A stretch of 37,193 nucleotides of DNA from assembly GCA_027482195.1 (NCBI GenBank), contig JAIXWE010000002.1, positions 1 through 37,193 of the forward strand. The letters are read 5' to 3'. Source of the stretch: Alphaproteobacteria bacterium (lineage in GTDB: Bacteria > Pseudomonadota > Alphaproteobacteria > Micavibrionales > Micavibrionaceae). Positions 4,364 through 20,553 of this stretch are shown here, one piece after another; within the stretch, counting starts at the first letter, position 1; the number at the start of each line of letters is the position of its first letter. Position numbers and translations under genes: made by a program. The notes under the pieces are model-generated. The model was not told where the DNA came from and searched no databases. It was given only the letters and a program-made list of their open reading frames with translations.

Positions 4364-4752
4364 TTTGTAAACCGAAGGTCGGGGGTTCAAATCCCTCAGC
4401 CGGCACCAGATTTTTTTCCACAATCATTATGGGTCTATCAAAAAGCCGTTTGAGTCGGTAGGAACACTTTTTCTCTTATTCAGTCTCTTGTTGCGTAAGC
4501 CTTGAATAAAATAGGTTTTTGTATCCTTACCGATGCACAACATGAATCCCTTTAATTTCGTATCAGAATAAAAGATTTGCTTTTTTGAATCCGACGGCAA
4601 CTTGTCAATGTTGCTTTTGTTCAATTTCAATTTTGGCATCCGCCACCTCCCACAGCTATCCTTTGGCATTTATTACGTGGGGTGAGAGATGTACATATTG
4701 AAAGACCCTGAATGGGTCTATTCAAACAGCTTCAGGAATAGTCATGGAAAAT
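4364..4752. repeat. Right copy of 389-bp att/int-fragment repeat
   Basis: Starts with the 46-bp tRNA-Thr 3' half (4364-4409), which cannot fold as a tRNA because the 5' half is missing. It then continues collinearly with 71-459 without gaps. It carries a second copy of the Arm-domain gene. An att copy followed by integrase DNA is what a second tandemly inserted island would leave at its left end. Confidence 0.9.
4427..4639 (-). CDS. Stand-alone Arm-type integrase N-terminal domain (copy 2)
   Basis: Same 70-residue architecture and same stop position as the gene at 134-346, with 7 amino-acid differences between the two from the chosen start. The motifs KLNKSNIDKLPSDSKK, FYSDTKLKGF and TKTYFIQ are typical of the integrase Arm-type domain. 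The ribosome site GGGAGG is retained upstream of the ATG. This copy is slightly closer to the family consensus (Pro at residue 15, LKGF). There is no catalytic domain downstream; the frame ends 18 bp from the att core. Confidence 0.7.
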   Translation of the reverse strand: MPKLKLNKSNIDKLPSDSKKQIFYSDTKLKGFMLCIGKDTKTYFIQGLRNKRLNKRKSVPTDSNGFLIDP

Positions 4753-4888
4753 GGACGGACAGAAAAGTAAGTTTTGAATGATATTTTGTTCTAAGGTTCA
4801 AGTCTTAAAGTCCTTTATATTAGGTGATATTTTGATACCTTAAGTGTAGTATTCTTATAAGAAATAACTTATTGCAGGATTGCTTTAT

Positions 4889-5620
4889 ATGAAGACCTAC
4901 GAAACATTTTCTGTTCTGAATGAACAATCAAATCATCCGATTGTTATCACAGCCGAGCATGCGGGGAATGAGTGGCCAGTGGGTGAGCCTATTTTTGGTA
5001 TGCCACATAATTGGCAAGAACAGCATTACGCTTATGACCGAGGTGTTAGAAATTTTGTTACTGACCTCGCGCGAGCATTGGGGTGTCCTGCTGTTTTGGG
5101 TAAATATAGTCGCGTGTTAATTGATTTGAATCGTGTTCCTGGTGCTGAGGACATTATTAAGACATCAAATGACGGTGTTGAGTTTCCCATGAATCAGAAT
5201 CCGTTAGATCTTTTAAATCAGCGCTTTGATAAATATTACATTCCTTATCATGCAAAAGTAAAAGAGCTATTGTGGAATAAGCCTAATAGATTTCATTTAT
5301 GTGTTCATAGCTATATTCAGAAAAAAATGACAGATGACTTTGATAATCCGTGGCATTTGGGCATTCAATATCCAGTAAGAAATAATTTGGTTCAATCTGC
5401 TCTCGACTATTTTTTGACGCTTGAGGATGCTGTTGTCGCCGATAACCTTCCCTATGATTTGCGCAAAGGTCTGCCTGGCTCCATCAGTTTGCATGCTGCT
5501 GCATTTGGAATGCCAACAGTTGAGTTGGAGTTTCGTGATGATCAATTAACAGACCTTGATCGTTCTTATCATTGGCAGGGCTTAGTTCTAGAATGGATTA
5601 GATCGCTTGCTAAAGAGTAA
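4889..5620 (+). CDS. N-formylglutamate amidohydrolase family protein
   Basis: The 243-aa product has the N-formylglutamate amidohydrolase (FGase) signature: HPIVITAEHAGNEWP near the N terminus, YDRGVRNFVTDLARALGCP, then KYSRVLIDLNRVPG and the C-terminal GMPTVELEFRDDQL with the glutamates expected around the metal site. FGases hydrolyse N-formyl-L-glutamate to glutamate and formate at the end of one histidine-degradation route, but no hut genes are nearby, so the true substrate may be another N-acyl amino acid. I prefer the ATG at 4889, 9 bases after AGGA, over the TTG at 4880. It is followed by a separately promoted GNAT gene. Confidence 0.85.
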   Translation: MKTYETFSVLNEQSNHPIVITAEHAGNEWPVGEPIFGMPHNWQEQHYAYDRGVRNFVTDLARALGCPAVLGKYSRVLIDLNRVPGAEDIIKTSNDGVEFPMNQNPLDLLNQRFDKYYIPYHAKVKELLWNKPNRFHLCVHSYIQKKMTDDFDNPWHLGIQYPVRNNLVQSALDYFLTLEDAVVADNLPYDLRKGLPGSISLHAAAFGMPTVELEFRDDQLTDLDRSYHWQGLVLEWIRSLAKE

Positions 5621-6819: not shown

Positions 6820-7007
6820 GGCATACTTATGCTCAAGTTATCATCATTGATAAGTGTGCCGGGGCTGAAGAATTGGAAACGGGTACAGGTTTAAATTTCA
6901 ATCCAAATGGGTTAAGAGCTCTAACTTATATTGACGCTTTAAAGGAAGATGAGTTTATATTCTTAAACATACCCCCTTCGCATACTCATGATTTTAAATC
7001 AAGATAG
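6780..7007 (+). pseudogene. Remnant of an FAD-dependent monooxygenase (N-terminal piece)
   Basis: The open frame reads the 55-bp repeat and then QVIIIDKCAGAEELETGTGL and NFNPNGLRAL. This resembles the segment just after the Rossmann dinucleotide motif in class A flavin monooxygenases, where a V-x-V-x-E/D strand is followed by GAGI-x-L-x-PNALRAL. The GxGxxG motif that should precede it is replaced by the repeat, and everything beyond about 25 residues afterwards is gone. It is almost certainly a truncated, non-functional fragment produced at the repeat junction. Confidence 0.5.
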
Positions 7008-7029
7008 AAGATTGCCGAGGAGGCGACAA

Positions 7030-8301
7030 ATGATTGCATGCGGTATAGATTTTGGAACATCAAACTCAGTTTGTTCAATAACTGATGGTGATAAAGTATC
7101 TCTTGTTCCTTTGGAAAATAATAAAAATATTATACCAAGCTCAATCTTTTTCTTCAAAGATGGGGCTGTAGCTTTTGGTAGAGCTGCGATGGAGGCTTAT
7201 GTGGAGGGGGATGAAGGTAGATTGATGCGGGGGCTAAAGTCTATATTGGGCACCTCTTTAATGCTTGAAAGAACAGTAATCTACGGAAAATCAGTAGACT
7301 TTTCTGAAATTTTAAAAATATATTTTAATCATTTAAAAGTTCAAATCGAAAAATTTGCGAATCAGTCTGTTGATACTGTTGTTTTGGGTAGGCCAGTTCA
7401 TTTTCATGATAATGATATTAATGCAGATAACTTATCTCAGGAGACCTTAAAAAAAATAGCGGCTGATGTAGGATTTAAAAATATCAGTTTTCAATATGAG
7501 CCTGTCGCAGCTGCCTACGCGCATGAGGTGCGTTCAAAGAAAGAAAAGATAGCTATTGTTGCGGATTTTGGTGGAGGAACATCTGACTTTACAGTTATTA
7601 GGCTTGCCGGTCAGAATCAACAAGATGTTATTAATAAAGATGCTGTTTTGTCTACCGAGGGCGTAAGAACCGGTGGTAATAATTTTGATAAGTTGTTGAG
7701 TATGCGCTCATTCATGCCATCTCTTGGTTACGGCAGTAGTTATAGAGATATGTTTGATCCTGTGAAAATATTGCCCATACCGAACAACGCCTATGTTGAT
7801 TTATCGGATTGGCCGAGAGTGAGTCTTGCTCAAACATCAAAAGTTATCCTTCAGACAAAGAAACTAATACCATATGCTCGCGAGCCTCAAAAACTAAAAA
7901 ACTTACTTTCTATACAGGAGGGAGGATTAGGTTATTTATTTCTTCAAACTGTGGAAGATACTAAAATAAGCCTATCTTCTTTTGATAAAGTATCAAAAAT
8001 TTTTAATGAAGGGGGTCTGTCATTAGATTTTCAGATTATAAGGGAGGATTTTGAGCAGTCCTTGGAATATGAAATGACTAAAATTTATAATGCTATTATT
8101 AACTGTCTGCAAAAGGCGAGCGTTTCTAATAAAGATGTTGATACAGTTCTTTTAACAGGTGGATCTTCACAACTTCCGGTTATTCAAAGAATGATCTCGA
8201 ATATTTTCCCTCAAGCCGAGTTATCTAATTTAGATAAATTTTCAAGTGTAGGGCTGGGTCTAGGTTTTATTGCAAAGTCAAATTTTGATTTGGAGTTTTG
8301 A
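7030..8301 (+). CDS. Hsp70-family ATPase, YegD-like
   Basis: A 423-aa actin-fold ATPase: phosphate-1 loop GIDFGTSNSVCSI at residues 4-16, connect motif YEPVAAAYAHE (about 157-167), phosphate-2 loop ADFGGGTSDFTVIRL (about 178-192) and adenosine motif LLTGGSSQLPVI near residue 375. The DnaK substrate-binding domain and lid are missing, as in E. coli YegD (450 aa), so this is an ATPase-domain-only putative chaperone. The ATG at 7030 follows GAGGAGG and is preferred over the upstream ATG at 6988. The gene is visibly richer in A and T (AAA, ATA, TTT codons) than the housekeeping genes later in the window, which suggests acquisition. Confidence 0.85.
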   Translation: MIACGIDFGTSNSVCSITDGDKVSLVPLENNKNIIPSSIFFFKDGAVAFGRAAMEAYVEGDEGRLMRGLKSILGTSLMLERTVIYGKSVDFSEILKIYFNHLKVQIEKFANQSVDTVVLGRPVHFHDNDINADNLSQETLKKIAADVGFKNISFQYEPVAAAYAHEVRSKKEKIAIVADFGGGTSDFTVIRLAGQNQQDVINKDAVLSTEGVRTGGNNFDKLLSMRSFMPSLGYGSSYRDMFDPVKILPIPNNAYVDLSDWPRVSLAQTSKVILQTKKLIPYAREPQKLKNLLSIQEGGLGYLFLQTVEDTKISLSSFDKVSKIFNEGGLSLDFQIIREDFEQSLEYEMTKIYNAIINCLQKASVSNKDVDTVLLTGGSSQLPVIQRMISNIFPQAELSNLDKFSSVGLGLGFIAKSNFDLEF

Positions 8302-8775: not shown

Positions 8776-9096
8776 TTAGCCTTTTTCACCACCGGCTAAT
8801 TTGCCGCATAATCCTGCAGGAACATAAAGCCAAGCGTTTTTGTCAGCATCTTTTGTGGCTGATCCAGCGCAGGAATTGCTACCGTCTTTTGAGGCGCAAT
8901 CATTCTTGCCCGCTTTAGCAACACCATAGCATTTCTCTTTATCGGTTTTCGCTTCAGCATGGTTACAGCTATTGGTGCCTTTGCATCCGTTTGCTTCTGT
9001 TTTGGCGCCTTCGGCATTTGCCGTCATTGGCAAGACCATTCCGCCTGTTGACATCATGGCTGCTAAAACAGCGGTACATAAAAGTTTTTTATTCAT
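8776..9096 (-). CDS. bufA1: Bufferin-type (DUF2282) metal-binding peptide precursor
   Basis: A 106-aa exported precursor: signal peptide [15 protein letters not shown]...TANA, then a Cys-rich chain with the DUF2282/BufA1 signature [23 protein letters not shown] and the C-terminal [13 protein letters not shown]. In this family an MNIO enzyme with its partner converts cysteines to heterocycles so the exported peptide binds copper. Six cysteines lie in the mature part. Unusually, an extra NGCKG/NSCNH segment precedes the DUF2282 core and matches motifs in the second precursor at 9875. I chose the ATG at 9096 because the signal peptide starts there; ATGs at 9105 and 9111 would add 3 or 5 residues. 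It has its own promoter with a TetR-type operator and is separated from the modification genes by the regulator. Confidence 0.85.
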
Positions 9097-9116
9097 AGTT
9101 TCCATCCTCATGGTTA

Positions 9117-9147
9117 TATTCTACCTACCGTTAGGTAGAATAATCAA
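9117..9147 (-). promoter_or_regulatory. Operator and promoter of the bufferin precursor gene
   Basis: A perfect inverted repeat with 11-bp arms, TATTCTACCTA (9117-9127) and TAGGTAGAATA (9132-9142) around CCGT. On the minus strand TTGATT (9147-9142) and TAGAAT (9123-9118) are spaced by 18 bp, so the palindrome fills the promoter. The core CTACCTACCGTTAGGTAG differs by one base from the site at 9835-9852. Confidence 0.8.
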
Positions 9148-9185
9148 AAAATAGAAAACTTTATAAAAGGATGCAAGTTTAAAAT

Positions 9186-9752
9186 TTAGGTATATTCACG
9201 AATAATGATTTCGGCCGTTTGCCGGGCGTTTGTCACGGAGTCTTTGCTGCCAGTCACGAGCCAGGCCGCATATCCTGATAAAATAAGAGCCGCAACTTTT
9301 TGTCCCACAATCTCTGGTTGCTTTAACTTAGCGTGCTGTGCAAACTCGGTTAAGTGATTGACCACAAATTTATAATGCGCGTGACTTACTTTTCTAACAG
9401 GACTCTTTTTGTCCGTTATTTCGGCAGAAGCATTTAAGAAAGGACAGCCGTAAAAGTCAGGATCATTTAAAGAAAGTTTTGTTTTATCGAATAGAATCAA
9501 TAGCTTTTTCTTATAATTGTCGCCACATTCTTCCCATGCCAACATATAATCGGCACGACACCGTGCACTGAAAAATTTGTAAGCTTCTTCAATAAGTTGG
9601 TCTTTGTTGGGAAAATAATGATACAAAGAAGGCTTGCTGATCCCAACGGCTTTTGCGATATCTTCCATGCCTGTTGCACGGATTCCTGCTTTGTAAAAAA
9701 GCATAGATGCCGTTTCTAAAATCTTCTCACGGGTTGCGCGCGCCTTGGGAAT
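9186..9752 (-). CDS. TetR family repressor, apparent ATT start
   Basis: A 188-aa TetR regulator: helix 1 ATREKILETASMLFYKAG, helix-turn-helix IRATGMEDIAKAVGISKPSL then YHYFPNKDQLI, and a ligand-binding C-terminal domain containing YGCPFLNASAE. The first ATG in frame (9704) would cut away most of helix 1. The frame extends upstream through the complete helix to a TAG without any ATG, GTG or TTG, but AAGGAG (9765-9760) stands exactly 7 bases before an ATT codon at 9752-9750, so ATT is the likely start. It lies between the two precursor genes, whose promoters share an operator, and is the obvious candidate repressor. Cys in YGCPF could take part in metal or redox sensing, which is inference. Confidence 0.85.
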   Translation of the reverse strand: MPKARATREKILETASMLFYKAGIRATGMEDIAKAVGISKPSLYHYFPNKDQLIEEAYKFFSARCRADYMLAWEECGDNYKKKLLILFDKTKLSLNDPDFYGCPFLNASAEITDKKSPVRKVSHAHYKFVVNHLTEFAQHAKLKQPEIVGQKVAALILSGYAAWLVTGSKDSVTNARQTAEIIIREYT

Positions 9753-9796
9753 GGCTTTTCTCCTTACAGTAATAAAATTGCTTATCTATGCTTACA

Positions 9797-9810
9797 CTGT
9801 CACTTGACAG
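9797..9810. promoter_or_regulatory. Palindrome overlapping a strong -35 in the divergent intergenic region
   Basis: CTGTCA-CT-TGACAG is a perfect inverted repeat. Its right part with the preceding T gives TTGACA (9804-9809), spaced 17 bp from TATTTT (9827-9832), a plausible plus-strand promoter for the lipoprotein-MNIO operon. It may be a second regulator site distinct from the TetR-type operator. Confidence 0.45.
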
Positions 9811-9830
9811 CACAAAAGGGAAGCGATATT

Positions 9831-9859
9831 TTGACTACCTACCGTTCGGTAGATAACAT
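9831..9859 (+). promoter_or_regulatory. TetR-type operator upstream of the Cys-rich lipoprotein operon
   Basis: CTACCTACCGTTCGGTAG (9835-9852) contains the perfect inverted repeat CTACCG-TT-CGGTAG (9839-9852). An alternative promoter TTGACT (9831-9836), 17 bp, TAACAT (9854-9859) would enclose it, and with the TTGACA/TATTTT promoter just upstream it would cover the transcription start. It shares 17 of 18 bases with the operator at 9121-9138. It also lies upstream of the TetR gene on the other strand, allowing autoregulation. Confidence 0.75.
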
Positions 9860-9874
9860 GAGGAAGGAAAATAC

Positions 9875-10123
9875 ATGTCACATACATCATTGAAAAATAA
9901 TATTACCCGCAATGTCTTGGCATCCATGCTTTGTGTTGGTCTGGGGGCGGTTGCGCTCACCGGCTGCACAACTCCGGATCAAAACGCCTGCAATCATACT
10001 AATGGTTGCAAGGGTAAGACAACCGCAGAGAAAAATAGCTGTAAGTCTGCAAATGGCTGTAAAGCGGCTTCGAAGGACGGTAACGGCTGTTCCTCCAAAG
10101 AAGCAAATGGTTGTAACCATTAA
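9875..10123 (+). CDS. Cys-rich lipoprotein with N-x-C repeats, likely MNIO substrate
   Basis: An 82-aa protein. Residues 14-31 are a lipoprotein signal ending in the lipobox L28-T-G-C31. The remaining 51 residues contain six cysteines (39, 45, 56, 62, 72, 80), every one preceded by Asn two positions earlier (NAC, NGC, NSC, NGC, NGC, NGC), spaced 6-11 apart in a Lys/Ser/Ala/Gly linker. This low-complexity regular Cys pattern resembles MNIO substrates such as the EGKCG-repeat peptides, and the next gene is the MNIO enzyme. I infer a modified, envelope-anchored metal-binding peptide. AGGAAGGA lies just upstream of the ATG. Lipid anchoring of such a peptide is unusual. Confidence 0.75.
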   Translation: MSHTSLKNNITRNVLASMLCVGLGAVALTGCTTPDQNACNHTNGCKGKTTAEKNSCKSANGCKAASKDGNGCSSKEANGCNH

Positions 10124-10144
10124 TTATATCTAACCTGATATGTG

Positions 10145-10166
10145 GTCCTCGCTATTAAGCGAGGAC
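10145..10166 (+). terminator. Perfect 9-bp hairpin between precursor and MNIO gene
   Basis: GTCCTCGCT (10145-10153), loop ATTA, AGCGAGGAC (10158-10166). There is no T-run after it, so it is not a standard terminator. It sits 15 bases before the MNIO start codon and could act as a partial attenuator or an mRNA-stabilising or processing structure that keeps precursor mRNA in excess over enzyme mRNA. Confidence 0.5.
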
Positions 10167-10181
10167 ACATGAGGTGTAGGC

Positions 10182-11864
10182 ATGCGTCAACAAAATCACA
10201 TTCTTGGATTTGGTTTGGGTCTTCGGTCTCCGCATATTGCGCAGATTAAGCAGGATCATCCAAATTATATTGATTGGTTTGAAATTATCTCCGAAAATTA
10301 TATTGAGATGCAAGGTATCGCCCACCAGAATCTTGAGGCAATCAAAGAGCATTATCCGGTTATCCTGCATGGTGTGTCTTTGTCGATTGGGACGATTGAC
10401 ACCTTAAATTCGGAATATCTTACAAAGCTTAAAAAACTGGCGGACTGGGTGAATCCCGCATGGGTATCGGATCATTTATGCTGGACGGGTATTGCCCATC
10501 AGAATACGCATGATTTATTGCCTGTTCCTTACACGGAAGAGGCGTTGGCACATATTGTTGCGCGTATAAAGCAAGTACAGGATTATTTGGGTCGGCGTTT
10601 GATTTTTGAAAACCCATCAACATATTTGGAATTCGCATCGTCTTATATGCCGGAGGAAGAGTTTTTATCGCGCATGTCTGAGGAGTCAGGCTGCGGACTT
10701 TTGCTCGATGTCAATAATATATATGTGAGCTGTTACAATCACAAACGTGATCCAAAATCATATATCGATGCTTTGCCGCTGGATCATGTTTATCAAATTC
10801 ACCTAGCGGGGCATACAAATAAAGAAACCCATATTATCGATACACATAACGGCCCCGTTATTGATGAAGTTTGGCAGCTCTATAAATATGTGATTCACAA
10901 AGCCGGGTTTATCAGCACGATGATTGAATGGGATGATGACATTCCACCTTTATCGGATGTTGTTGCCGAGCTTGATAAGGCACGAAAAATTGTTGCAAAT
11001 ATAGATGATGATTTTTCTTTACCGAAATTTTCTCCTGCGCCCCATCACATCGCTAATCAAAATGTTCCGTTGAATGAAAATATGTCTTTGATGCAGGGGG
11101 TTATTTTAAACGGTTTATCACCGGATGATCATCTCTCCTGGATTAAGCCGAAACAAGAATTAACCCAAGCGGAGCAGATTCAAATTTATGCCGGCGGATA
11201 TCGCGAAAGACTTATTTCAATCACGCTTAAAGACTATCCTTTTCTTGAGGTTTATGTGGGGCCTGAGAAAATGCGCCGTTTAGTGGGTGATTTTGTGAAC
11301 AAAACCCCATCACCTTTTTATGATACCGGGCGTTATCCCGCACTTTTTTATGAGTTTTTGTTGCAACAGAATATAGACGACCACATTTTATTAGAGATTG
11401 CGGAGTTTGAGTCCGTCTTATCCGCAACCGAGTATAAGAAAGAAAATCAAGCTCTTTGCTCAAAGGATATAAATAACTTTGATATTTCAAGCTTTCTTAC
11501 GCATAAAGTTGAGTTTGTTGAGAGCTTATCCATCCATTCATTTTCATGGAATGTTTTTGATTGTTACAATCATTTTCTTGAGAAAAAAGAACTCTGTTCT
11601 CTTGATAAAATCCCGTCTCATATAGCTGTCTTTTACAAAGACGGAAAAGTGTGGCGACTGGAGCTTGAGGCGCTTGAGAAAGATTTTATTTTATCCCTTC
11701 TATCACATTCTTCGTTTGAAGAAGCGTTGGACTATTTTATCGAAGGTAATTCACAAATTGATCCAGCATTGCTTCAAGAAAAACTATCAACCTGGTTTTC
11801 AACATGGCTTTCGAACGGAATTCTGAAAGCTCCCGAAATTCAAACCCTTCAAAAATCAGCATAA
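10182..11864 (+). CDS. bufB: Fused MNIO (DUF692) and DUF2063 peptide-modification enzyme
   Basis: A 560-aa two-domain protein. Residues about 1-280 are a complete MNIO (DUF692, BufB/HvfB) TIM-barrel oxidase: ILHGVSLSIGT, VSDHLCW, HDLLPVPYTEEAL, FENPSTYLEF, GLLLDVNNIYVSCYNH, HLAGH, DTHNGPV and MIEWDDDIP, containing the His/Asp/Glu positions for the iron cluster. Residues about 305-550 are the DUF2063 (BufC/HvfC-like) partner that recognises the precursor: QIQIYAGGYRERLISITLKD, YPFLEVYVGPEKMRRLVGDF and a C-terminal region. In most clusters these are separate genes; here one frame covers both with no frameshift. It should oxidise cysteines of the two precursors at 8776 and 9875 in the cytoplasm before export. 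DoxX follows by 13 bp. Confidence 0.9.
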   Translation: MRQQNHILGFGLGLRSPHIAQIKQDHPNYIDWFEIISENYIEMQGIAHQNLEAIKEHYPVILHGVSLSIGTIDTLNSEYLTKLKKLADWVNPAWVSDHLCWTGIAHQNTHDLLPVPYTEEALAHIVARIKQVQDYLGRRLIFENPSTYLEFASSYMPEEEFLSRMSEESGCGLLLDVNNIYVSCYNHKRDPKSYIDALPLDHVYQIHLAGHTNKETHIIDTHNGPVIDEVWQLYKYVIHKAGFISTMIEWDDDIPPLSDVVAELDKARKIVANIDDDFSLPKFSPAPHHIANQNVPLNENMSLMQGVILNGLSPDDHLSWIKPKQELTQAEQIQIYAGGYRERLISITLKDYPFLEVYVGPEKMRRLVGDFVNKTPSPFYDTGRYPALFYEFLLQQNIDDHILLEIAEFESVLSATEYKKENQALCSKDINNFDISSFLTHKVEFVESLSIHSFSWNVFDCYNHFLEKKELCSLDKIPSHIAVFYKDGKVWRLELEALEKDFILSLLSHSSFEEALDYFIEGNSQIDPALLQEKLSTWFSTWLSNGILKAPEIQTLQKSA

Positions 11865-11877
11865 AAGGAAAATTATT

Positions 11878-12345
11878 ATGAATCTTGTCACAATTTTTCG
11901 TTCAATATCTCAAATTTATATGAATAAAATTATTCCGATCCTTGATCAACTCAGCGCCCTTCCGCTTTTGGGCATGCGGCTGTGGATTGCGCTTATTTTC
12001 TGGAAGTCTGGCTTAAGTAAGCTTGATTATTGGGAAGGCACGGTCACGCTTTTTCAAGATGAGTATATGGTGCCCTTTTTGCCCCCGGAATTTGCTGCAC
12101 AATTGTCAACGGCGGTCGAGCTGTCTGCACCTGTTCTTTTATTCCTTGGTCTTGGGACTCGTTTTGCCGCGTGCGCTTTATTGGGTATGACTCTTGTGAT
12201 TGAGTTTACTTACATGAGCTTTCCTATACATCAAGTATGGGCCCTCATTCTTTTGATGTTGATCACAAAAGGGGCGGGTAAAATTTCTTTGGATTATTTG
12301 ATCTTATGTTTAAAAGATTCTCTCATTTTCTTCAAAAAGAAATAA
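11878..12345 (+). CDS. DoxX family membrane protein of the bufferin-like operon
   Basis: A 155-aa inner-membrane protein with four hydrophobic segments. It shows typical DoxX features: LLGMRLWIALIFWKSGLSKL in the first helix, TVELSAPVLLFLGLGTRFAA-like second and third helices, and IHQVWALILLMLI in the last. DoxX proteins (HvfD-like) accompany MNIO/DUF2063 genes in peptide clusters; their role there is not settled, with electron transfer or quinone-linked redox proposed. Start ATG at 11878 follows AGGAAAA, 13 bp after the fused enzyme, so it is co-transcribed. A weak AT hairpin at 12344-12364 follows the stop. Confidence 0.88.
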   Translation: MNLVTIFRSISQIYMNKIIPILDQLSALPLLGMRLWIALIFWKSGLSKLDYWEGTVTLFQDEYMVPFLPPEFAAQLSTAVELSAPVLLFLGLGTRFAACALLGMTLVIEFTYMSFPIHQVWALILLMLITKGAGKISLDYLILCLKDSLIFFKKK

Positions 12346-12471
12346 TCAAATAGCTTTTTTGATTCATCAAATATGGGAAGTTTTCTAATAAAAAGATTGT
12401 CACTCTTCACGTTTAATCAATATGTTGCTGTTGCCGAAGTCAGGCGGGCTGTTTGATTTTTTCCTCAAGTG

Positions 12472-12867
12472 ATGTATATAAATAATATGATTTACAATTT
12501 TGTTCACAAAATTAGATTTGTTGCGGCCCTTGCGGTCGTGTTTTCTATTTTGTTCACAGGATTTGCACAGGCGTCTTTCGTCTCAACCATAGATCCGTGT
12601 CACGATTCTGAGCACAGCATGAATTTCTCCGCTGACGCGTCGAAGCATTGCGATGAAAATACTGATGATCAAAATCATAATGGTCATGATCATAAAAAAC
12701 CTGGCCATTGTTGCGTTAGCCATTGCTGTGTCACAAAAATCAGTGCTTTATCAGAATACACTCATCCTTTTTCTGTCCTAAAAGAGGATATCGTTTTTGT
12801 TTATAGGACTGTCTTGTCTGTAGATTTTCTTTACGGTATTTTTCGACCCCCTCGGTTTTTTGTTTGA
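12472..12867 (+). CDS. Small His/Cys-rich exported metal-binding protein
   Basis: A protein of about 131 aa with an N-terminal hydrophobic segment (FVAALAVVFSILFTGFAQAS, signal peptide or anchor) and a metal-rich middle: HDSEHSM, HCDENTDDQNHNGHDHKKP and GHCCVSHCCV. The C terminus VDFLYGIFRPPR resembles the short proteins often encoded just before czc/cus efflux genes (DUF2946-like). It probably binds metal in the periplasm and delivers or buffers it for the efflux pump encoded next. The start is unsure: GTG 12469, ATG 12472 or ATG 12487, none with a good ribosome site. It lies 69 bp before the outer-membrane efflux gene. Confidence 0.65.
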   Translation: MYINNMIYNFVHKIRFVAALAVVFSILFTGFAQASFVSTIDPCHDSEHSMNFSADASKHCDENTDDQNHNGHDHKKPGHCCVSHCCVTKISALSEYTHPFSVLKEDIVFVYRTVLSVDFLYGIFRPPRFFV

Positions 12868-12935
12868 TGAAATAAACAGGCATCGGCGCATACGCGGATG
12901 CAGATCTTATATCAAACAATCAACGAGTAGTTTCC

Positions 12936-14204
12936 ATGACAAGAATTATTTGTGAGCGATCTTGCTCCGTAACGGTGTTTTTTTCACTGATTATATTTGC
13001 TTTGGCTGTGCCCTCTCATGCCTTAAGTGCGGAGATAACAGAAGATTCGGTTTTGAAGGCGAGTATGCAACACAGCCCTATATATCAGGCTGTTTTGCGC
13101 AATTCGGCTGAAGAAAAGGCCGATGCCGAACAGGTGGGGCGGCTACAAAACCCGACGATTGATTTTAGCCGTAAAAACATATCTACCCCTGGCGATGATG
13201 AAACAGCTACGGATATAGAGATTGAGCAACCGCTCAAAATCTCACAAATAACAGGCACACGCCTGCTGCTATCAAACACGCTTTTGAAACGGGCTAATTT
13301 ACGAGAACGGCATGGACTTATTCAAGCGTATTGGGATGTCAAACTTCTTTACGCGCAAACATGGCAAGCGCAGGAAAGAGTGGGAATCTTAAGTCGGTTC
13401 TTGAAACAAGCCGTGGTCACGGCCGCACAGATTCAAAAATCAGTAAAGGCAGGGCAAAAGCCTGTGAGTGAAGGAAGTTTATTTGAAGGAGATGTGGCAA
13501 AATTTGAAGGGAACTTGGCGCAGGCTCAAGCGGAGCATAGCCGCCTGAGGACCCTTTTGGAAAAATCATCCGGGATATCCTTGGAGGGGGATGTAAAACT
13601 ACAAAGCCCCGTTCTTTCGTCTTTCCCGCGTGACATTGCCGACCTTGAGCAAAAAGCCAAAATTAATGCAAGTTTAGTGCATTTATTGGATGCCGATATG
13701 AAAGCGGCGGAACGGCAAAAAGCAGCCGCAGTAGCAGATAGCGGAGCACCCGAAATTGCGCCGCGCTTTATTTACGGTCGCAATGATGATGCAGATGAAG
13801 ATGCCGTTGGTTTTGGTGTGGTTCTTACCATCCCGCTGTGGGATAGAAACACCAATGAGCGGCAAAAAGCTGAAGCCGCTAAACGCTATGCGCAGTCACA
13901 ATTGGATAGCTTGCAATCTGTGCCACTGACACAAAGATTGAAAAGATATCTTGAAGACATTGAACGGCTTGATACGCGCCTCGAAAAACTTTCGAACAAG
14001 GCTCTACCCAATTACCGCAAGGCTTTTTCTCAGGCACAGAAAAGTTTCAATGCGGGTCAAACGGATGCTGTCTCTTTGTGGCAAATTCGCGAGCGTTTGA
14101 TGCAAACAGAGATGGAGGCGTTGACGTCCACACTCGAGGCCTTGAATGCACGACAAATATTATCTTTAGAAACCGGAATAATTCCAGATGAGGTTACGCC
14201 ATGA
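12936..14204 (+). CDS. czcC: Outer-membrane efflux protein, CzcC/TolC family
   Basis: A 422-aa TolC-fold outer-membrane channel subunit. Signal peptide at residues 1-32 (VFFSLIIFALAVPSHALSA), no lipobox, then long helical hairpins; VGRLQNPTIDFSRKN and GFGVVLTIPLWDRNTNERQK are the conserved sequence positions of the OEP repeat, ending in ALNARQILSLETGIIPDE. It forms the exit duct of the tripartite metal pump with the next two genes; its stop overlaps the adaptor start by four bases (ATGA), implying translational coupling. Confidence 0.9.
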   Translation: MTRIICERSCSVTVFFSLIIFALAVPSHALSAEITEDSVLKASMQHSPIYQAVLRNSAEEKADAEQVGRLQNPTIDFSRKNISTPGDDETATDIEIEQPLKISQITGTRLLLSNTLLKRANLRERHGLIQAYWDVKLLYAQTWQAQERVGILSRFLKQAVVTAAQIQKSVKAGQKPVSEGSLFEGDVAKFEGNLAQAQAEHSRLRTLLEKSSGISLEGDVKLQSPVLSSFPRDIADLEQKAKINASLVHLLDADMKAAERQKAAAVADSGAPEIAPRFIYGRNDDADEDAVGFGVVLTIPLWDRNTNERQKAEAAKRYAQSQLDSLQSVPLTQRLKRYLEDIERLDTRLEKLSNKALPNYRKAFSQAQKSFNAGQTDAVSLWQIRERLMQTEMEALTSTLEALNARQILSLETGIIPDEVTP

Positions 14205-15154
14205 AAAAACTTTTCATCATCTCTGTATGTTTTATGTTTTTGACATCTGTTGCGATTGCTGGCCCCGGCCATGATCACGGCGCACCCGGCGAGAGCGCCG
14301 GCGGGCCATTAGATGAAATTGAACTGACCGAAGCCATGATCAAAAATTTGGGTGTGCAAACATCACAAGCCACTTTGCAAGATGTAGCAAGGACGATTGA
14401 TCTCAACGGCAATGTTGAATATTTACCCGAGCGTCAAGCGATTATCAGTTCAAAAGCGGAAGGATCGGTTGCACAAATTTTTGTAAACTCAGGTGAGAGA
14501 GTAAATAAAGGCGATCCTGTGCTTGAGATTCAGCCGCGCCTTGTTGGCAATCCTGTCATCACATTAGCAGCGCCGTTGAGTGGTTTTGTGATTGAACAAA
14601 ATATTGTCCAAGGTGAAGCCGTATCACCAGAAGAAATTTTGATGCGCATTGCCGATATATCACAAGTGTTGGTACGTGGTCAGGCATTCGAAGATTTACA
14701 GCAAGCGGGTATCCGCGCTGGACAAAAAGTCACTGTGACAACGCCAAGCTTTGCAGGTGTTTTGTTTCAAGGAACGGTGCAACGTGTTGATGCGACTTTA
14801 AGCGCTGGCAGCCGTGCACGCGGTATTATTGCGTTGGTTGATAACCCACAAGGACAGTTATTAGCGAACATGCAGGCTATGTTGGCCGTGCAAACGGGTG
14901 ATCAAAACATGGCTCTTGTTGTTCCACAACGCGCGATTTTAGGTGATCTCGGAAATTATTTTTTATATGTGCGCGAGGATAATCATTTTTACCGCCGTGA
15001 TCTGGTTTTGGGTCAGAAATTTGGTTCGCTACGTGAAATTATCGAAGGCGTTTTGCCGGATGAGCACGTCGTCACAATTGGCAATTATCAATTGCAGTTT
15101 GTCACACCACCAAAAGACGGTGGCGCCGAAGATGACCATGGCCACGACCATTAA
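14201..15154 (+). CDS. czcB: Periplasmic adaptor of metal RND efflux, CzcB family
   Basis: A 317-aa membrane-fusion protein: signal peptide MKKLFIISVCFMFLTSVAIA, a His-containing N terminus (GPGHDHGAPGESAGG), barrel-sandwich halves at about 90-150 (GSVAQIFVNSGERVNKGDPV and PLSGFVIEQNIVQGEAV), a beta-barrel region and an acidic His-rich tail (DDHGHDH). There is almost no coiled-coil hairpin between the lipoyl halves, so it is a short adaptor. His-rich termini could bind metal ions and pass them to the pump. It links the inner-membrane pump and the outer-membrane channel of the same operon. Confidence 0.9.
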   Translation: MKKLFIISVCFMFLTSVAIAGPGHDHGAPGESAGGPLDEIELTEAMIKNLGVQTSQATLQDVARTIDLNGNVEYLPERQAIISSKAEGSVAQIFVNSGERVNKGDPVLEIQPRLVGNPVITLAAPLSGFVIEQNIVQGEAVSPEEILMRIADISQVLVRGQAFEDLQQAGIRAGQKVTVTTPSFAGVLFQGTVQRVDATLSAGSRARGIIALVDNPQGQLLANMQAMLAVQTGDQNMALVVPQRAILGDLGNYFLYVREDNHFYRRDLVLGQKFGSLREIIEGVLPDEHVVTIGNYQLQFVTPPKDGGAEDDHGHDH

Positions 15155-15165
15155 GGATTATAAAA

Positions 15166-18100
15166 ATGATAAACGCATTGATTGATTTTTCTATTCGCCA
15201 TCGCCTACTTGTTGTGGTGATGACCTTGCTTATCACGGCCTACGGTGGATGGGTGTTGACGAAATTACCCGTTGATGTGTTCCCTAACCTCAACCGCCCA
15301 ACTGTCACCATATTCAGCGAATCTCCTGGTTTGGCCGCTGAAGAAGTTGAAACATTGGTCACGAGGCCGATTGAGGCCGCCGTTAATGGCGCGCCGGGCG
15401 TTGAGCGTGTGCGGTCGTCGTCCATGGTTGGTTTATCCCTTATTTGGGTTGAGTTTGATTGGTCCACCGACATGTATATCGCACGGCAAATTGTTGCCGA
15501 GAAATTACAAGGCGCACGGGAAATTTTACCGAAAGACATTGATCCTTATATGGGGCCGATTGCCTCAATCATGGGGGAAGTGTTTCAAGTGGGGCTCACG
15601 GCAAAAGATAAATCTGTCACATCAGTTGATTTACGCACTTATGCCGAATGGGATATGCGCAACCGCTTATTATCTATTCCGGGAATCGCAGAAATTACCG
15701 TTCTGGGTGGAGATCTCAAACAATATCAAGTGTTGGTTGATCCCGTAAAATTAATCCAGTACGGCAAATCCTTGCATGATGTGAAGGCTGCCATTGAAGG
15801 CGCAAATGTGAATGCCACTGGCGGTTTCATGATTTCTGACTACACGGAAACACTTATTCGTGTGAATGGCCGTGTTGGAAGCATTGATGATTTGGCCCGC
15901 GCACCATTGCCGCAAACAGAGGATGACAGTTCCGTCATTCGCCTCGGGCAAGTGGCGGAAGTACGTCTGGGTGGCCCATTAGGTAAACGTGGTGATGCCA
16001 GTATCAACATGACCCCGGCCGTTGTGCTTTCCATTCAAAAACAGCCCGATGCTGACACATTAGATTTAACCAAAAAAATTGAAGCTGAGATTAAGAGTAT
16101 CAAAGCGTCGTTACCGCAAGGAATGGAAATTCACGATGATATTTTTCGTCAGGCGAATTTTATTGAACGCGCGATTAAAAATGTTGAAGAAGCCTTACGT
16201 GACGGCTCAATCTTGGTTGCGCTCATCTTGACCGTCTTTTTGCTCAATTTTCGGACAAGCTTTATTACCCTGACCGCTATTCCCTTGTCCCTATTGATCA
16301 CAGCGATTGTATTTTATTGGATGGGGTTGTCGATCAACACTATGACGTTGGGTGGCCTTGCGGTTGCGATTGGGGAGTTGGTGGATGATGCGATTGTTGG
16401 TGTTGAAAATGTTTATCGTCGCTTGCGTGAAAACCGACTGAAGGGCAATAAGATTGACCCTTATGAAGTTATTCGTGTGGCGTCATCTGAGGTACGCGGG
16501 TCGATTGTTTTTGCAACCATTATTGTGGTGTTGGTGTTTATCCCGCTTTTTGCCATGCAGGGAATTGAAGGACGCATTTTTACACCATTGGGTATTGCTT
16601 ATATTGTTTCCATTCTCGCGTCTTTGCTGGTCTCGCTTACACTTACGCCCGCACTTTGTGCTTATATGTTGCCGAAGTTAAAGCGACTGGAGTCAGAACA
16701 TGAAGGCTGGGTCGTGCGTCAGGTGAAGTCAACCCAACGTTTTATCTTAGATAGGCTTTTTCCGCGCTCAACCTTGGTATTTATCATCATTGCAGTGGCG
16801 TTTTTGGGTTCGGTTGCTGTCTTTACCACCTTTGGTCGTGAATTTTTGCCACAGTTTAATGAAGGTAGTATGACCGTCACCATCTTTCAAAAACCTGGCA
16901 CATCACTGGCCGAAAGTAACCGTATCGGAAATATCGCCGAACGACTTATGCAAGAACTGCCTGAGATTGAAAAGACGTCTCGCCGCGCAGGCCGCGCGGA
17001 GCGCGATGATCATGTGAAGGGGGTTTATGCAACCGAGCTTGAAGCCACATTGTTGCCATCAGATCGCACACGCGCAGAGATTTTTGCCGACATCAGGGAG
17101 AAGCTTGCAACAATACCTGGTATTTCTGTGGAAGTGGGGCAACCGATCTCGCACCGCATTGATCACATGTTATCGGGTGTGCAAGCACAAATTGCGGTCA
17201 AGCTTTTTGGCCCTGACCTGAATATTTTGCGCGCTAAGGCGGAGGAGATTAAAGCCGCGATGGGCAACGTGAAGGATGTTGTTGATTTAGCCGTTGAGAA
17301 ACAAGTTCTGATCCCGCAATTACATGTGTTGGTGGATAGAGAAGCGGCCGCAGCACGCGGCTTGATGGCCGGAGAGGTTGCCGCATATGCGCAACTTGCG
17401 ATGCAGGGTGAAGTGGTTGGCTCTATTCTAGAGAATGAGCGCACGCATGACATTATCATGCGCCTTAAGGATGACGCGCGCGACTCTGCCGAGGCTATTC
17501 GTAAAATTCCGATTGATACATTCGATTCGCATATTGTCCCGCTTGATCTGGTGGCTGATATTGAAGAAGCGAAGGGTGCCAATCTGATCAATCGTGAAAA
17601 TGCTCAGAGGCGCATCATCATTCAAGCCAATAGCAGTGCGCGCGATTTGGTGGGTGTTGTTGAAAATATAAAAACAGCGATCAATGAGAAAGTGGAGCTG
17701 CCCGAAGGTTATTATATTGTCTATAGCGGGCAATTTGAAAGCCAAGCAAGTGCGAGCAAGATGATTATATTATTATCTACTCTCTCATTCTTAGGCATGT
17801 TCATTGTTCTTTATGCCCACTTCAAAAGTGCAAATCTGGCGGTGCAAGTCATGCTGGCAATTCCCCTTGCTTTTATCGGGGCCGCTATCGGGATTGCGGT
17901 AACGGGCGGCGTGTTCTCGATTGCAACACTGGTTGGATTTATTACGCTCACCGGGATTGCGGCACGCAATGGTATTATGATGATTGCGCATTATCTTCAT
18001 CTGATGGAGCATGAAAATGAGAAATTTGACCTTGCGATGATTTATCGCGGCACAGCGGAGCGGATTATCCCTGTGATGATGACGGCGTTGACTGCAGCGC

Positions 18101-18288
18101 TTGCCCTTGTTCCTATTTTAATAGCAACGGACGAGCCGGGGCGCGAAATTATTTCTCCTGTAGCGGTTGTGATTTTCAGTGGGTTATTTACGAGTACCTT
18201 ATTGGATTTAACCGTACGGCCACTTTTATTCTGGCGTTTCGGGCGCGCGCCAGTTGCAAAACTTATTCCCCAAGCGTTTAATACTTAA
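15166..18288 (+). CDS. czcA: Heavy-metal RND efflux permease, CzcA/CusA family
   Basis: A 1040-aa proton-driven inner-membrane RND pump of the HME group: LPVDVFPNLNRPTVTIFSES in the first periplasmic loop, RSSSMVGLSLIWVEFDWSTD, two sets of transmembrane helices with a large periplasmic loop after each of TM1 and TM7, and the TM4 motif AIGELVDDAIVGVENVYRRL containing the acidic proton-relay residues. CzcA-type pumps have DFG...DGAVV at this point and CusA has AIG..VDAA; this DDA variant belongs to a different HME subgroup, so the metal cannot be fixed from the motif. RIDHMLSGVQAQI in the second loop carries His and Met where CusA has its first methionine. AAGGA precedes the ATG. Confidence 0.92.
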   Translation: MINALIDFSIRHRLLVVVMTLLITAYGGWVLTKLPVDVFPNLNRPTVTIFSESPGLAAEEVETLVTRPIEAAVNGAPGVERVRSSSMVGLSLIWVEFDWSTDMYIARQIVAEKLQGAREILPKDIDPYMGPIASIMGEVFQVGLTAKDKSVTSVDLRTYAEWDMRNRLLSIPGIAEITVLGGDLKQYQVLVDPVKLIQYGKSLHDVKAAIEGANVNATGGFMISDYTETLIRVNGRVGSIDDLARAPLPQTEDDSSVIRLGQVAEVRLGGPLGKRGDASINMTPAVVLSIQKQPDADTLDLTKKIEAEIKSIKASLPQGMEIHDDIFRQANFIERAIKNVEEALRDGSILVALILTVFLLNFRTSFITLTAIPLSLLITAIVFYWMGLSINTMTLGGLAVAIGELVDDAIVGVENVYRRLRENRLKGNKIDPYEVIRVASSEVRGSIVFATIIVVLVFIPLFAMQGIEGRIFTPLGIAYIVSILASLLVSLTLTPALCAYMLPKLKRLESEHEGWVVRQVKSTQRFILDRLFPRSTLVFIIIAVAFLGSVAVFTTFGREFLPQFNEGSMTVTIFQKPGTSLAESNRIGNIAERLMQELPEIEKTSRRAGRAERDDHVKGVYATELEATLLPSDRTRAEIFADIREKLATIPGISVEVGQPISHRIDHMLSGVQAQIAVKLFGPDLNILRAKAEEIKAAMGNVKDVVDLAVEKQVLIPQLHVLVDREAAAARGLMAGEVAAYAQLAMQGEVVGSILENERTHDIIMRLKDDARDSAEAIRKIPIDTFDSHIVPLDLVADIEEAKGANLINRENAQRRIIIQANSSARDLVGVVENIKTAINEKVELPEGYYIVYSGQFESQASASKMIILLSTLSFLGMFIVLYAHFKSANLAVQVMLAIPLAFIGAAIGIAVTGGVFSIATLVGFITLTGIAARNGIMMIAHYLHLMEHENEKFDLAMIYRGTAERIIPVMMTALTAALALVPILIATDEPGREIISPVAVVIFSGLFTSTLLDLTVRPLLFWRFGRAPVAKLIPQAFNT

Positions 18289-18306
18289 AACTAAAGGAGT
18301 CTTTCC

Positions 18307-18720
18307 ATGAAAAAACTTACCCTCTCTCTTATGGCTGTTTTGTTGCTCAGCGGATCCCCCGTGATAGCGGACGATGATCACGGCTATATTAAAGCCGATG
18401 ATCACAGTGCTATCCAACCATTGGATGTTTCAGGTGATGAAGCTCTCAAGATTATTCAACAAGGCGTCCCTGAACTTGCTCAGAAAATTGAAGCCTCTCA
18501 AGTCGAGCTTATAAAGGCAACAGCCTTAAGATTAATTTCAGCTATTAAAACCCTAGACAAAGAACCTCTGAGCGATAGGCAGAAATCGGCCCTAAAGCAA
18601 CTTGAAAAGCAAATTGATAATGCCAAGCATGAGACAGAAGAAAAAAACTTTACCAAAGCCAAATCTTCTATACAAAAAGCTCAATCCGCTCTCAAGCTCT
18701 ATGAAGCGATGAAGCAATAA
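18307..18720 (+). CDS. Small periplasmic helical protein of the efflux operon
   Basis: A 137-aa protein of unknown family. Signal peptide MKKLTLSLMAVLLLSGSPVIA is followed by DDDHGYIKADDHSA (Asp/His-rich, potentially metal-binding) and then about 100 residues of amphipathic helix with heptad-like Leu/Ile/Ala spacing. It has a strong ribosome site (AAGGAG) 19 bp after the pump gene and precedes a CDF transporter by 2 bp, so it is part of the operon. A periplasmic metal-sensing or chaperone role is the reasonable inference. Confidence 0.7.
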   Translation: MKKLTLSLMAVLLLSGSPVIADDDHGYIKADDHSAIQPLDVSGDEALKIIQQGVPELAQKIEASQVELIKATALRLISAIKTLDKEPLSDRQKSALKQLEKQIDNAKHETEEKNFTKAKSSIQKAQSALKLYEAMKQ

Positions 18721-18722
18721 AT

Positions 18723-19340
18723 ATGGGCGTGCATTGCGGGCATGAGGATGTATTTGATGGCAATGACCCGCATTTTCGGCGGGCGTTGATAATCGTTATC
18801 GCCATAAATTTTTTGATGTTTATTGTCGAGGTTGGTGCAGGTCATGTGTCAAACTCACAAGCATTATGGGCCGATGCTTTAGATTTTTTTGCCGATGCAA
18901 TCACATACACGATCACACTTTTTGTGATTGGTAAGCCGCTTAAAATTCGCTCTCGGGCGGCATTTATGAAGGGGCTGAGTTTATTGTTGATGGCGATTTG
19001 GGTTCTGGGAAGCACGGTTTATGATATCTTTTATCTCAAAACACCCGAAGCTCACATTATGGGTGTTATTGGAATGATGGCGTTGCTTGCGAATGTGATG
19101 AGCGTGTTGATTTTGATGCGCTGGAGTAAGGGGGATTCGAATGTGCGCTCTGTGTGGTTGTGTTCGCGTAATGATACGATTGGAAATTGTGCTGTTATGC
19201 TGGCCGCATTTGGTGTGTGGGGGACGGGTACGGCGTGGCCTGATTTAATTGTCGCAGCGATTATGGGTAGTTTATTTTTAACAAGCTCAATCAAAATCAT
19301 GCAGCAAAGCAGGCATGAAACACATCATCATTCTTCATAA
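18723..19340 (+). CDS. Short cation diffusion facilitator (CDF) transporter
   Basis: A 205-aa inner-membrane protein with six hydrophobic segments of the CDF fold. TM2 carries SQALWADALDFFADAITY (usual family pattern H/D-S-x-x-x-D) and TM5 SRNDTIGNCAVMLAAFG, the two halves of the metal site. The CDF cytoplasmic C-terminal domain (about 90 residues) is absent; instead the chain ends in RHETHHHSS. A Cys/His-containing N terminus (VHCGHEDVFDG) may bind metal. Such short CDFs occur beside czc operons. It would move divalent cations from cytoplasm to periplasm, supplying the RND pump. Confidence 0.85.
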   Translation: MGVHCGHEDVFDGNDPHFRRALIIVIAINFLMFIVEVGAGHVSNSQALWADALDFFADAITYTITLFVIGKPLKIRSRAAFMKGLSLLLMAIWVLGSTVYDIFYLKTPEAHIMGVIGMMALLANVMSVLILMRWSKGDSNVRSVWLCSRNDTIGNCAVMLAAFGVWGTGTAWPDLIVAAIMGSLFLTSSIKIMQQSRHETHHHSS

Positions 19341-19458
19341 AAATGCCTTAAATCATTATGTGGAGGGGTGCTCTCTGCGTAGAGTTTGATACAGATTGCT
19401 TGGTTATCCTTGCTTTATTCCGGCTGAGGTTTAAATAGATGACAAAAGGAGATAACAC

Positions 19459-20553
19459 ATGCCTACGCTTTATGAACCTGCGCAATTTGGAAAAATTGAA
19501 GTCAAAAACAGAATATTTTTAGCGCCACTTACACGCAACAGATCAAAGCCAGATTTTTCACCAAGCGATCTTGCGCCTGAATATTACAGCCAGCGCGCAT
19601 CAGGTGGTCTTTTGATTACGGAAGCATCACAAATAAGCCCCGAGGGAATTGGTTATATCAACACGCCCGGCATTTATAATGAGGCTCAGGTCGCGGGTTG
19701 GAAAAAAGTAACCGATGCCGTTCATGCCAAGGGCGGTAAAATTTTTATTCAGTTGTGGCATGTTGGACGAATTTCGCATACGTCTCTTTTGCCAAATGGT
19801 CAAGCGCCACTTGCGCCTTCTGCCCTTCGCGCAAAATCACAAACTTTTGTTGGTGATGCGGGTATGGTTGATGTCTCTGAGCCAAAAGCGATGAGTTTGG
19901 AAGATATTGCACGCACAATTGCAGATTATAAGCATGCTGCGGAATGTGCAAAGAAAGCTGGCTTTGATGGTGTTGAGATTCATGCGGCAAATGGATATCT
20001 GATTGACCAGTTTTTAATGGATGGCAGTAATCAACGCACAGATCAGTATGGCGGCCCTATAGAAAATCGTTTTCGTTTCCTGAGGGAGGTTTTAAATATG
20101 GTTTTGAGCGTATGGGATGCGGGAGAAGTTGGAATTCGTCTTTCCCCCACCGGAAAGTTTAATGACATGTCAGATACAAAGCGTCTTTCAACGTTTTCTT
20201 ACGTTGTTGAACAATTGAACGCATTCAATCTCGCGTATCTTCATTTCGTGGAAACCTTCCCAGGTATGCAAAACACAGATGAAGAGCAAAATATCATTGA
20301 AGCGCTCATCAAGAAGTGGACAGGATTTTACATCGCCAATGGTGGCTATGAGAAAGAAAACGCGGAATCGGCAATTATCTCCGGTAAGGCGGATGCGATT
20401 GCTTTTGGGCGTTCTTTTCTTGCGAATCCTGACTTGCCAAAACGTCTTGAATTGGGCGTGGCGTTGAATGACCCAGATCAAAGCACATTTTATGGTGGGG
20501 GTGCGGAAGGTTATACGGATTACCCAACATGGGATCAGAAAAAAGCAGCCTGA
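19459..20553 (+). CDS. Old yellow enzyme family NADH:flavin oxidoreductase
   Basis: A 364-aa FMN-dependent ene-reductase of the NemA/xenobiotic-reductase group. Conserved parts: KNRIFLAPLTRNRS near the N terminus, QLWHVGRISH, GFDGVEIHAANGYLIDQFL with the substrate-binding pair His175 and Asn178, QYGGPIENRFRF and AIAFGRSFLANPDLP. The protein reduces activated C=C bonds and some nitro compounds or quinones using NAD(P)H in the cytoplasm. It has its own ribosome site AAAGGAG and lies after a 118-bp gap from the metal cluster. A perfect 12-bp terminator follows. Stress-detoxification context is plausible, but no regulator is adjacent. Confidence 0.93.
   Translation: MPTLYEPAQFGKIEVKNRIFLAPLTRNRSKPDFSPSDLAPEYYSQRASGGLLITEASQISPEGIGYINTPGIYNEAQVAGWKKVTDAVHAKGGKIFIQLWHVGRISHTSLLPNGQAPLAPSALRAKSQTFVGDAGMVDVSEPKAMSLEDIARTIADYKHAAECAKKAGFDGVEIHAANGYLIDQFLMDGSNQRTDQYGGPIENRFRFLREVLNMVLSVWDAGEVGIRLSPTGKFNDMSDTKRLSTFSYVVEQLNAFNLAYLHFVETFPGMQNTDEEQNIIEALIKKWTGFYIANGGYEKENAESAIISGKADAIAFGRSFLANPDLPKRLELGVALNDPDQSTFYGGGAEGYTDYPTWDQKKAA

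Follow-up and report, generated by a model that had tools for sequence, protein, structure and literature searches.

Positions 8776–12345 of a 37,193-nt stretch of contig JAIXWE010000002.1 (hereafter, the window) encode a natural single-chain maturase of 560 aa in which an MNIO (DUF692) enzyme is followed by what profiles and structural models indicate to be its whole PME1 partner. The locus is a real, rare variant of the bufferin/captophorin system. A gene for a lipobox-bearing peptide with N-x-C repeats lies directly 5′ of the fusion gene and a DoxX gene directly 3′; a DUF2282 bufferin gene is divergent from this operon, with a TetR gene in between (Table 1). We consider it probable that this is a bufferin/captophorin-type metal-stress locus for ribosomally synthesized and post-translationally modified peptides (RiPPs), with the fused enzyme maturing both exported peptides. 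Profile matches and gene positions bear out the preliminary description of this layout, made from the DNA letters, in which a TetR gene stands between two distinct Cys-rich precursors and DoxX beside a single modification enzyme.

Profile searches place the fusion among the bufferin maturases. It scores 364.4 bits against the NCBIfam model MNIO_BufB (NF050167), above the curated cut-off of 310, and a Pfam search for DUF692, DUF2063 and DUF2282 returned all three domains, as had been claimed (DUF2063, PF09836: 36.3 bits against a cut-off of 27.2). Positions 17–234 of the 237 in the HvfC model (NF050145) align to fusion residues 324–548, but at a sub-threshold 34.1 versus 142 bits; the C-terminal half is thus homologous to HvfC but is no HvfC equivalog. 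In the confidently modelled C-terminal half, the best PDB match is NGO1945 (3DEE) and the next is TglI. This half contains DUF2063 followed by an RRE-type domain, the arrangement of PME1 proteins, and thus appears to include the entire partner. The earlier proposal that MNIO had been joined to DUF2063 was therefore right about the fusion but too narrow about its second half, which is a whole PME1 rather than DUF2063 alone.

The full-length model (mean pLDDT 85, pTM 0.81) has a barrel matching 3BWW, TglH and MbnB, with a TM-score of 0.87 to 3BWW by target length. Fusion and 3BWW have in common the motifs HG, SDH, EN, LDVNNIYV, IHxAGH, DTH and E-x-D, which are kept throughout the fusion alignment. 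An Asp (EWDDDIP) occupies the position of FonB Phe250 in the fusion, and of the FonB pair Arg15-Arg16 the second Arg is missing. This Asp is consistent with Cys-Lys specificity but does not prove it, because some unfused relatives with neighbouring DUF2282 genes have it as well.

An artefact of sequencing or assembly that joined two adjacent genes is conceivable in a draft genome of 125 contigs (99.8% complete), and such a joining of two frames had been named at the outset as the finding that would undo the fusion. We regard it as extremely improbable. The same uninterrupted fusion occurs at full length in 16 other genomes (a 17th copy is interrupted by a contig end) from several alphaproteobacterial families and Methylophilus; Methylophilus sp. 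42 and M. aquaticus, both isolates, are among them. These independent genomes also preserve the reading frame over the junction. In trees of the MNIO domain, all fusions form one clade (support 100/96 with 13 rows and 97/85 with 18 rows). Moreover, in the unfused sister loci L109–L111 the MNIO and partner genes overlap by 4 bases in different frames, so that loss of a single stop codon could not have fused them. The same overlap rules out an origin by simple stop read-through; an indel or internal joining would have been needed. Three of the closest unfused relatives (L050, L052 and L060) adjoin DUF2282 genes.

The survey agrees with the suggestion that the fusion is unusual. A match was obtained in 41 of 95 relatives; the full-length fusion (residues 8–549, 47–51% identity) is encoded in seven of them, the window not counted, and an eighth copy is cut by a contig end. 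Within the order, fusions were found in 10 of 142 genomes, a count that includes the window genome and the one cut by a contig end. Related MNIO genes are present in 143 of the 385 genomes sampled from the class and fusions in five (window genome included), and no further fusion was found in a phylum sample of 398 genomes. Three Methylophilus genomes and an alphaproteobacterium CG11 came to light in a scan of named genomes. Several candidates were rejected: the best plasmid matches are two separate annotated genes, the long or in-frame matches L112, L113, L118, L122, L134, L145 and L171 proved on checking to be separate genes, and a large open frame in genome G129 is an upstream overrun. The Methylophilus genomes (loci L105–L107; Betaproteobacteria, two of the three not metagenome-assembled) carry the fusion with DoxX and, in addition, a second, unfused MNIO, and in two of them a precursor with an ACKG motif lies upstream of the fusion. 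The Methylophilus fusion possibly reflects horizontal transfer with alphaproteobacteria.

Both candidate substrates have the features of known precursors. The DUF2282 peptide belongs to the Buf1 type, with four conserved Cys (61, 72, 81 and 102) and a Sec signal recognized by eye; its identity was as claimed, but its open reading frame begins at 9111, not at 9096. All four of its modifiable core Cys stand in N-x-C, and the two presumed disulphide Cys, placed by reference to the disulphide described for studied bufferins in part of a 2025 landscape survey (PMC12452194), do not. Its N-terminal extension, absent from ∼40 other DUF2282 sequences inspected, adds two lipoprotein-like N-x-C motifs, one of them NGCK. 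In the lipoprotein, all six Cys past the lipidation Cys are in N-x-C. Its NGCK, NSCK and NGCK motifs, together with the NGCK of the DUF2282 extension, are those of the captophorin Cys-Lys group. Lipidated MNIO products are known (PMC12636315), and the lipoprotein represents the known Cys-Lys/lipidated precursor types. The second, lipobox-bearing precursor noted earlier is thus present, though not as a new type. A second probable lipobox precursor precedes the fusion gene of locus L108 (near 4670–4900), with VSAC and then NSCKS/NSCES repeats.

Does one enzyme serve both peptides? A profile search of the whole genome found a single PF05114 gene and a single PF09836 gene, both of which are the fusion; any modification of the DUF2282 peptide must therefore come from this enzyme. 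In three other families, a divergent DUF2282 gene likewise lies next to the fusion (genomes G104, G400 and G453), with a single MNIO in each, and G453 repeats the window's whole layout, including an intervening TetR gene whose product is 35% identical to that of the window. In four fusion genomes with a second, unfused MNIO (G005, G042, G017 and G054), a DUF2282 gene adjoins that second enzyme instead. On these sequence comparisons, dual substrate use by the fusion appears well supported, and the earlier suggestion of a single enzyme for both peptides gains comparative support, the modification itself being predicted.

Alternatively, the fusion may mature the upstream N-x-C lipoprotein alone, the DUF2282 peptide being exported unmodified or a relic of a lost bufABC operon under the same repressor. 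Nearly all fusion genes inspected follow a same-strand gene for an exported, Cys-rich peptide, most of these bearing N-x-C or x-C-K repeats; at most of the other fusion loci this is a Sec-signal peptide with x-C-K repeats. The exceptions, with no recognizable upstream precursor, are Methylophilus L105 and L077 in genome G194, where DoxX follows the fusion and the genome has no DUF2282 gene. DUF2282 adjoins just four fusion genes, and DUF2282 genes apart from any MNIO gene are described as common in part of the survey (PMC12452194). However, the divergent DUF2282 gene beside the fusion recurs in four families, each time without another MNIO, and the window DUF2282 peptide shares N-x-C motifs with the other precursor, its gene having a separate operator copy. 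We therefore consider maturation of the lipoprotein alone unlikely.

Two observations nonetheless weigh against maturation of both peptides by the fusion. The dual layout is not universal: other fusion loci in the window's own family have one precursor and neither a divergent DUF2282 gene nor TetR. Two more genomes whose only MNIO is the fusion, those with L102 and L108, have the DUF2282 gene on a different contig. In favour of shared specificity, Asn precedes the third DUF2282 Cys by two residues in three of four fusion-linked genes, against 0 of 36 other genes (Fisher p 0.0004), but this contrast was found post hoc among few and related genes and counts as supporting evidence only. Fusion loci L033–L039, which come from the same family and order as the window, showed neither DoxX nor TetR nor a divergent DUF2282; the window locus more closely resembles those of other families, which suggests either an ancestral layout or transfer.

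Predicted regulatory sites also connect the two precursors. The preliminary description had listed operators. A near-identical copy of the predicted operator, with consensus CTACCTACCGTT(A/C)GGTAG, lies upstream of each precursor gene; at up to three mismatches the genome has no other such site. In shuffled sequence, a 14-mer shared with no more than one mismatch arose in one of 200 trials. The genome scan gave no third operator within three mismatches and so no sign of a wider TetR regulon. In G453, the best shared sequence is an 11-mer with one mismatch; as this level is reachable by chance, we treat it as suggestive only and do not count it as a shared operator. The TetR gene has no ATG, GTG or TTG between the upstream stop and the helix-turn-helix (HTH). 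Its likely start, judged from sequence, is an ATT at ∼9752 behind a strong AAGGAGA motif, because the first ATG (9704) would truncate the HTH. We infer that TetR binds at the twin operators, presumably in response to an effector.

In the mechanism that we propose, a BufB-type MNIO and its obligatory partner (BufC/PME1) would act as one polypeptide in a metallophore RiPP pathway. The C-terminal DUF2063/RRE half would bind each precursor at its signal region, Sec or lipoprotein, and, by analogy with captophorins (PMC13097082) and HvfBC (PMC13419390), would enable the mixed-valent iron cluster. The iron site in the N-terminal barrel would then oxidize the N-x-C cysteines, most likely to 5-thiooxazoles. 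The expected products are a DUF2282 bufferin that is soluble in the periplasm and an N-x-C peptide held in the membrane by its lipid; both may bind Cu(I) once exported. Repression of the two transcription units would fall to the dedicated TetR, acting at the twin operators. The chemistry, the recognition of both precursors and the copper binding are projected from these better-studied relatives. We judge the odds to be about even that every part of this picture holds: a bispecific single-chain MNIO–PME1 maturase, paired metallophores (one lipid-anchored, one free in the periplasm) and one dedicated TetR acting via twin operators.

The locus might instead answer a stress other than copper (zinc, gold, electrophile or thiol stress) or install a different Cys modification, copper being a projection from those relatives. 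The TetR protein has a Cys in a GCPF motif that is kept in the G453 TetR, a NemA-like reductase is encoded at 19459–20553, the neighbouring RND pump can be assigned no further than the CusA/CzcA subfamily, and gig operons are described in a passage of PMC5413113 as responding to gold as well as copper. Characterized MNIO–PME1 pairs, however, including those of captophorins, install 5-thiooxazoles, and their products generally bind Cu (PMC13097082). We consider another stress or modification very unlikely.

Among known systems, the bufferins (Buf1/DUF2282 and Buf2; bufABC/gig), as described in part of the 2025 survey (PMC12452194), likewise combine a Sec-signal DUF2282 peptide with four core Cys, a BufB-type MNIO, a DUF2063-RRE partner and DoxX. 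There, bufABC is a conserved order of three separate, consecutive genes, whereas here BufB and BufC are one chain from one open reading frame, and the divergent DUF2282 gene is set apart from the enzyme by TetR and a second precursor. The Cys-Lys group of captophorins (PMC13097082) matches the window in its N-x-C-K precursor motifs, in Asp at the FonB Phe250 position and in the missing second Arg, but here the partner is fused and a DUF2282 and a Cys-Lys precursor adjoin a single enzyme. Oxazolin HvfABCX and the engineered HvfB-HvfC fusion of a 2026 preprint (PMC13419390) share a DoxX-like gene and the order of MNIO then PME1 in one chain. That fusion is laboratory-made, without a linker, and more active than the co-expressed pair, with mixed-valent diiron reported at an occupancy of roughly 20%; the natural one has an interdomain linker of ∼25–45 residues, and the substrate motif is N-x-C here, EGKCG there. 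RiPP-lipoprotein hybrids (DAG-RiPPs; PMC12636315) have a lipobox in an MNIO precursor, as judged by eye for the window peptide, but here a soluble bufferin accompanies the lipidated-type precursor, with one enzyme next to both.

The survey reports tandem precursors and an MNIO–nitroreductase fusion, and its passages on fusions do not mention one of MNIO with PME1 (PMC12452194). A passage in a 2009 paper mentions, once and as an architecture, a Pfam protein with DUF692 at the N-terminus and DUF2063 behind it, without stating organism, context or function (PMC2954202). In the literature searched, from which subscription papers and UniProt lay outside, we found no description of the natural fusion clade or of its dual-precursor loci. 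Such MNIO enzymes rely on a partner that is thought to bind substrate as well as to give the iron cluster access to its active mixed-valent state, but the studied pair HvfB-HvfC binds weakly. The laboratory fusion was meant to overcome this weak binding; evolution arrived at the same kind of fusion and has kept it as a clade across two proteobacterial classes, cultured Methylophilus included. The natural protein is a ready-made one-to-one enzyme for spectroscopic and structural work and a natural test of how catalyst and helper cooperate. Its locus also allows a clean answer as to whether a single MNIO takes two precursor classes, a question so far raised from tandem precursor genes.

Table 1. 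Features of the locus (window coordinates)
Feature	Position	Strand	Basis
Locus: DUF2282 gene (−), TetR gene (−), lipobox Cys-rich peptide gene (+), 560-codon fusion gene (+), doxX (+)	8776-12345		
DUF2282 (Buf1-type) bufferin precursor, Sec signal, N-terminal extension	8776..9111	−	PF10048 81.8 bits, cut-off 22.4
Predicted operator copy 1, CTACCTACCGTTAGGTAG	9121-9138	unstranded	5′ of DUF2282 gene; 18/20 positions palindromic with flanks
TetR-family repressor	9186..9752	−	PF00440 58.9 bits; stop at 9186
Predicted operator copy 2, CTACCTACCGTTCGGTAG	9835-9852	unstranded	5′ of lipoprotein-fusion-doxX genes
Lipobox-bearing Cys-rich precursor	9875..10123	+	lipobox LTGC (by eye); N-x-C repeats
Natural single-chain MNIO–PME1 maturase, 560 aa	10182..11864	+	profile matches, homologues, trees, models
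MNIO domain of fusion (DUF692, PF05114)	10209..10994	+	358.6 bits, residues 10–271; PDB 3BWW match
PME1 half of fusion: DUF2063 (residues 319–393) and RRE-type domain (to residue 548)	11136..11825	+	PF09836, HvfC model, PDB matches
DoxX-family membrane protein (HvfX-like)	11878..12345	+	PF07681 65.9 bits

The DoxX protein scores 61.1 bits against the HvfX model, under its cut-off of 80. A metal island lies 3′ of the locus (12469–20553, + strand). It encodes a CopL-like protein (sub-threshold), an OEP, a CusB-like adaptor and a CusA/CzcA RND pump, and ends with the NemA-like reductase. It also includes a CDF-type protein of 205 aa that scores 75 bits against a cut-off of 82 for a model of 285 positions. 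The downstream CusA/CzcA-type pump genes are consistent with a metal role for the locus. Just 5′ of the locus (6988–8301, + strand) is a short, solitary gene for an Hsp70/MreB-like ATPase (437 aa).

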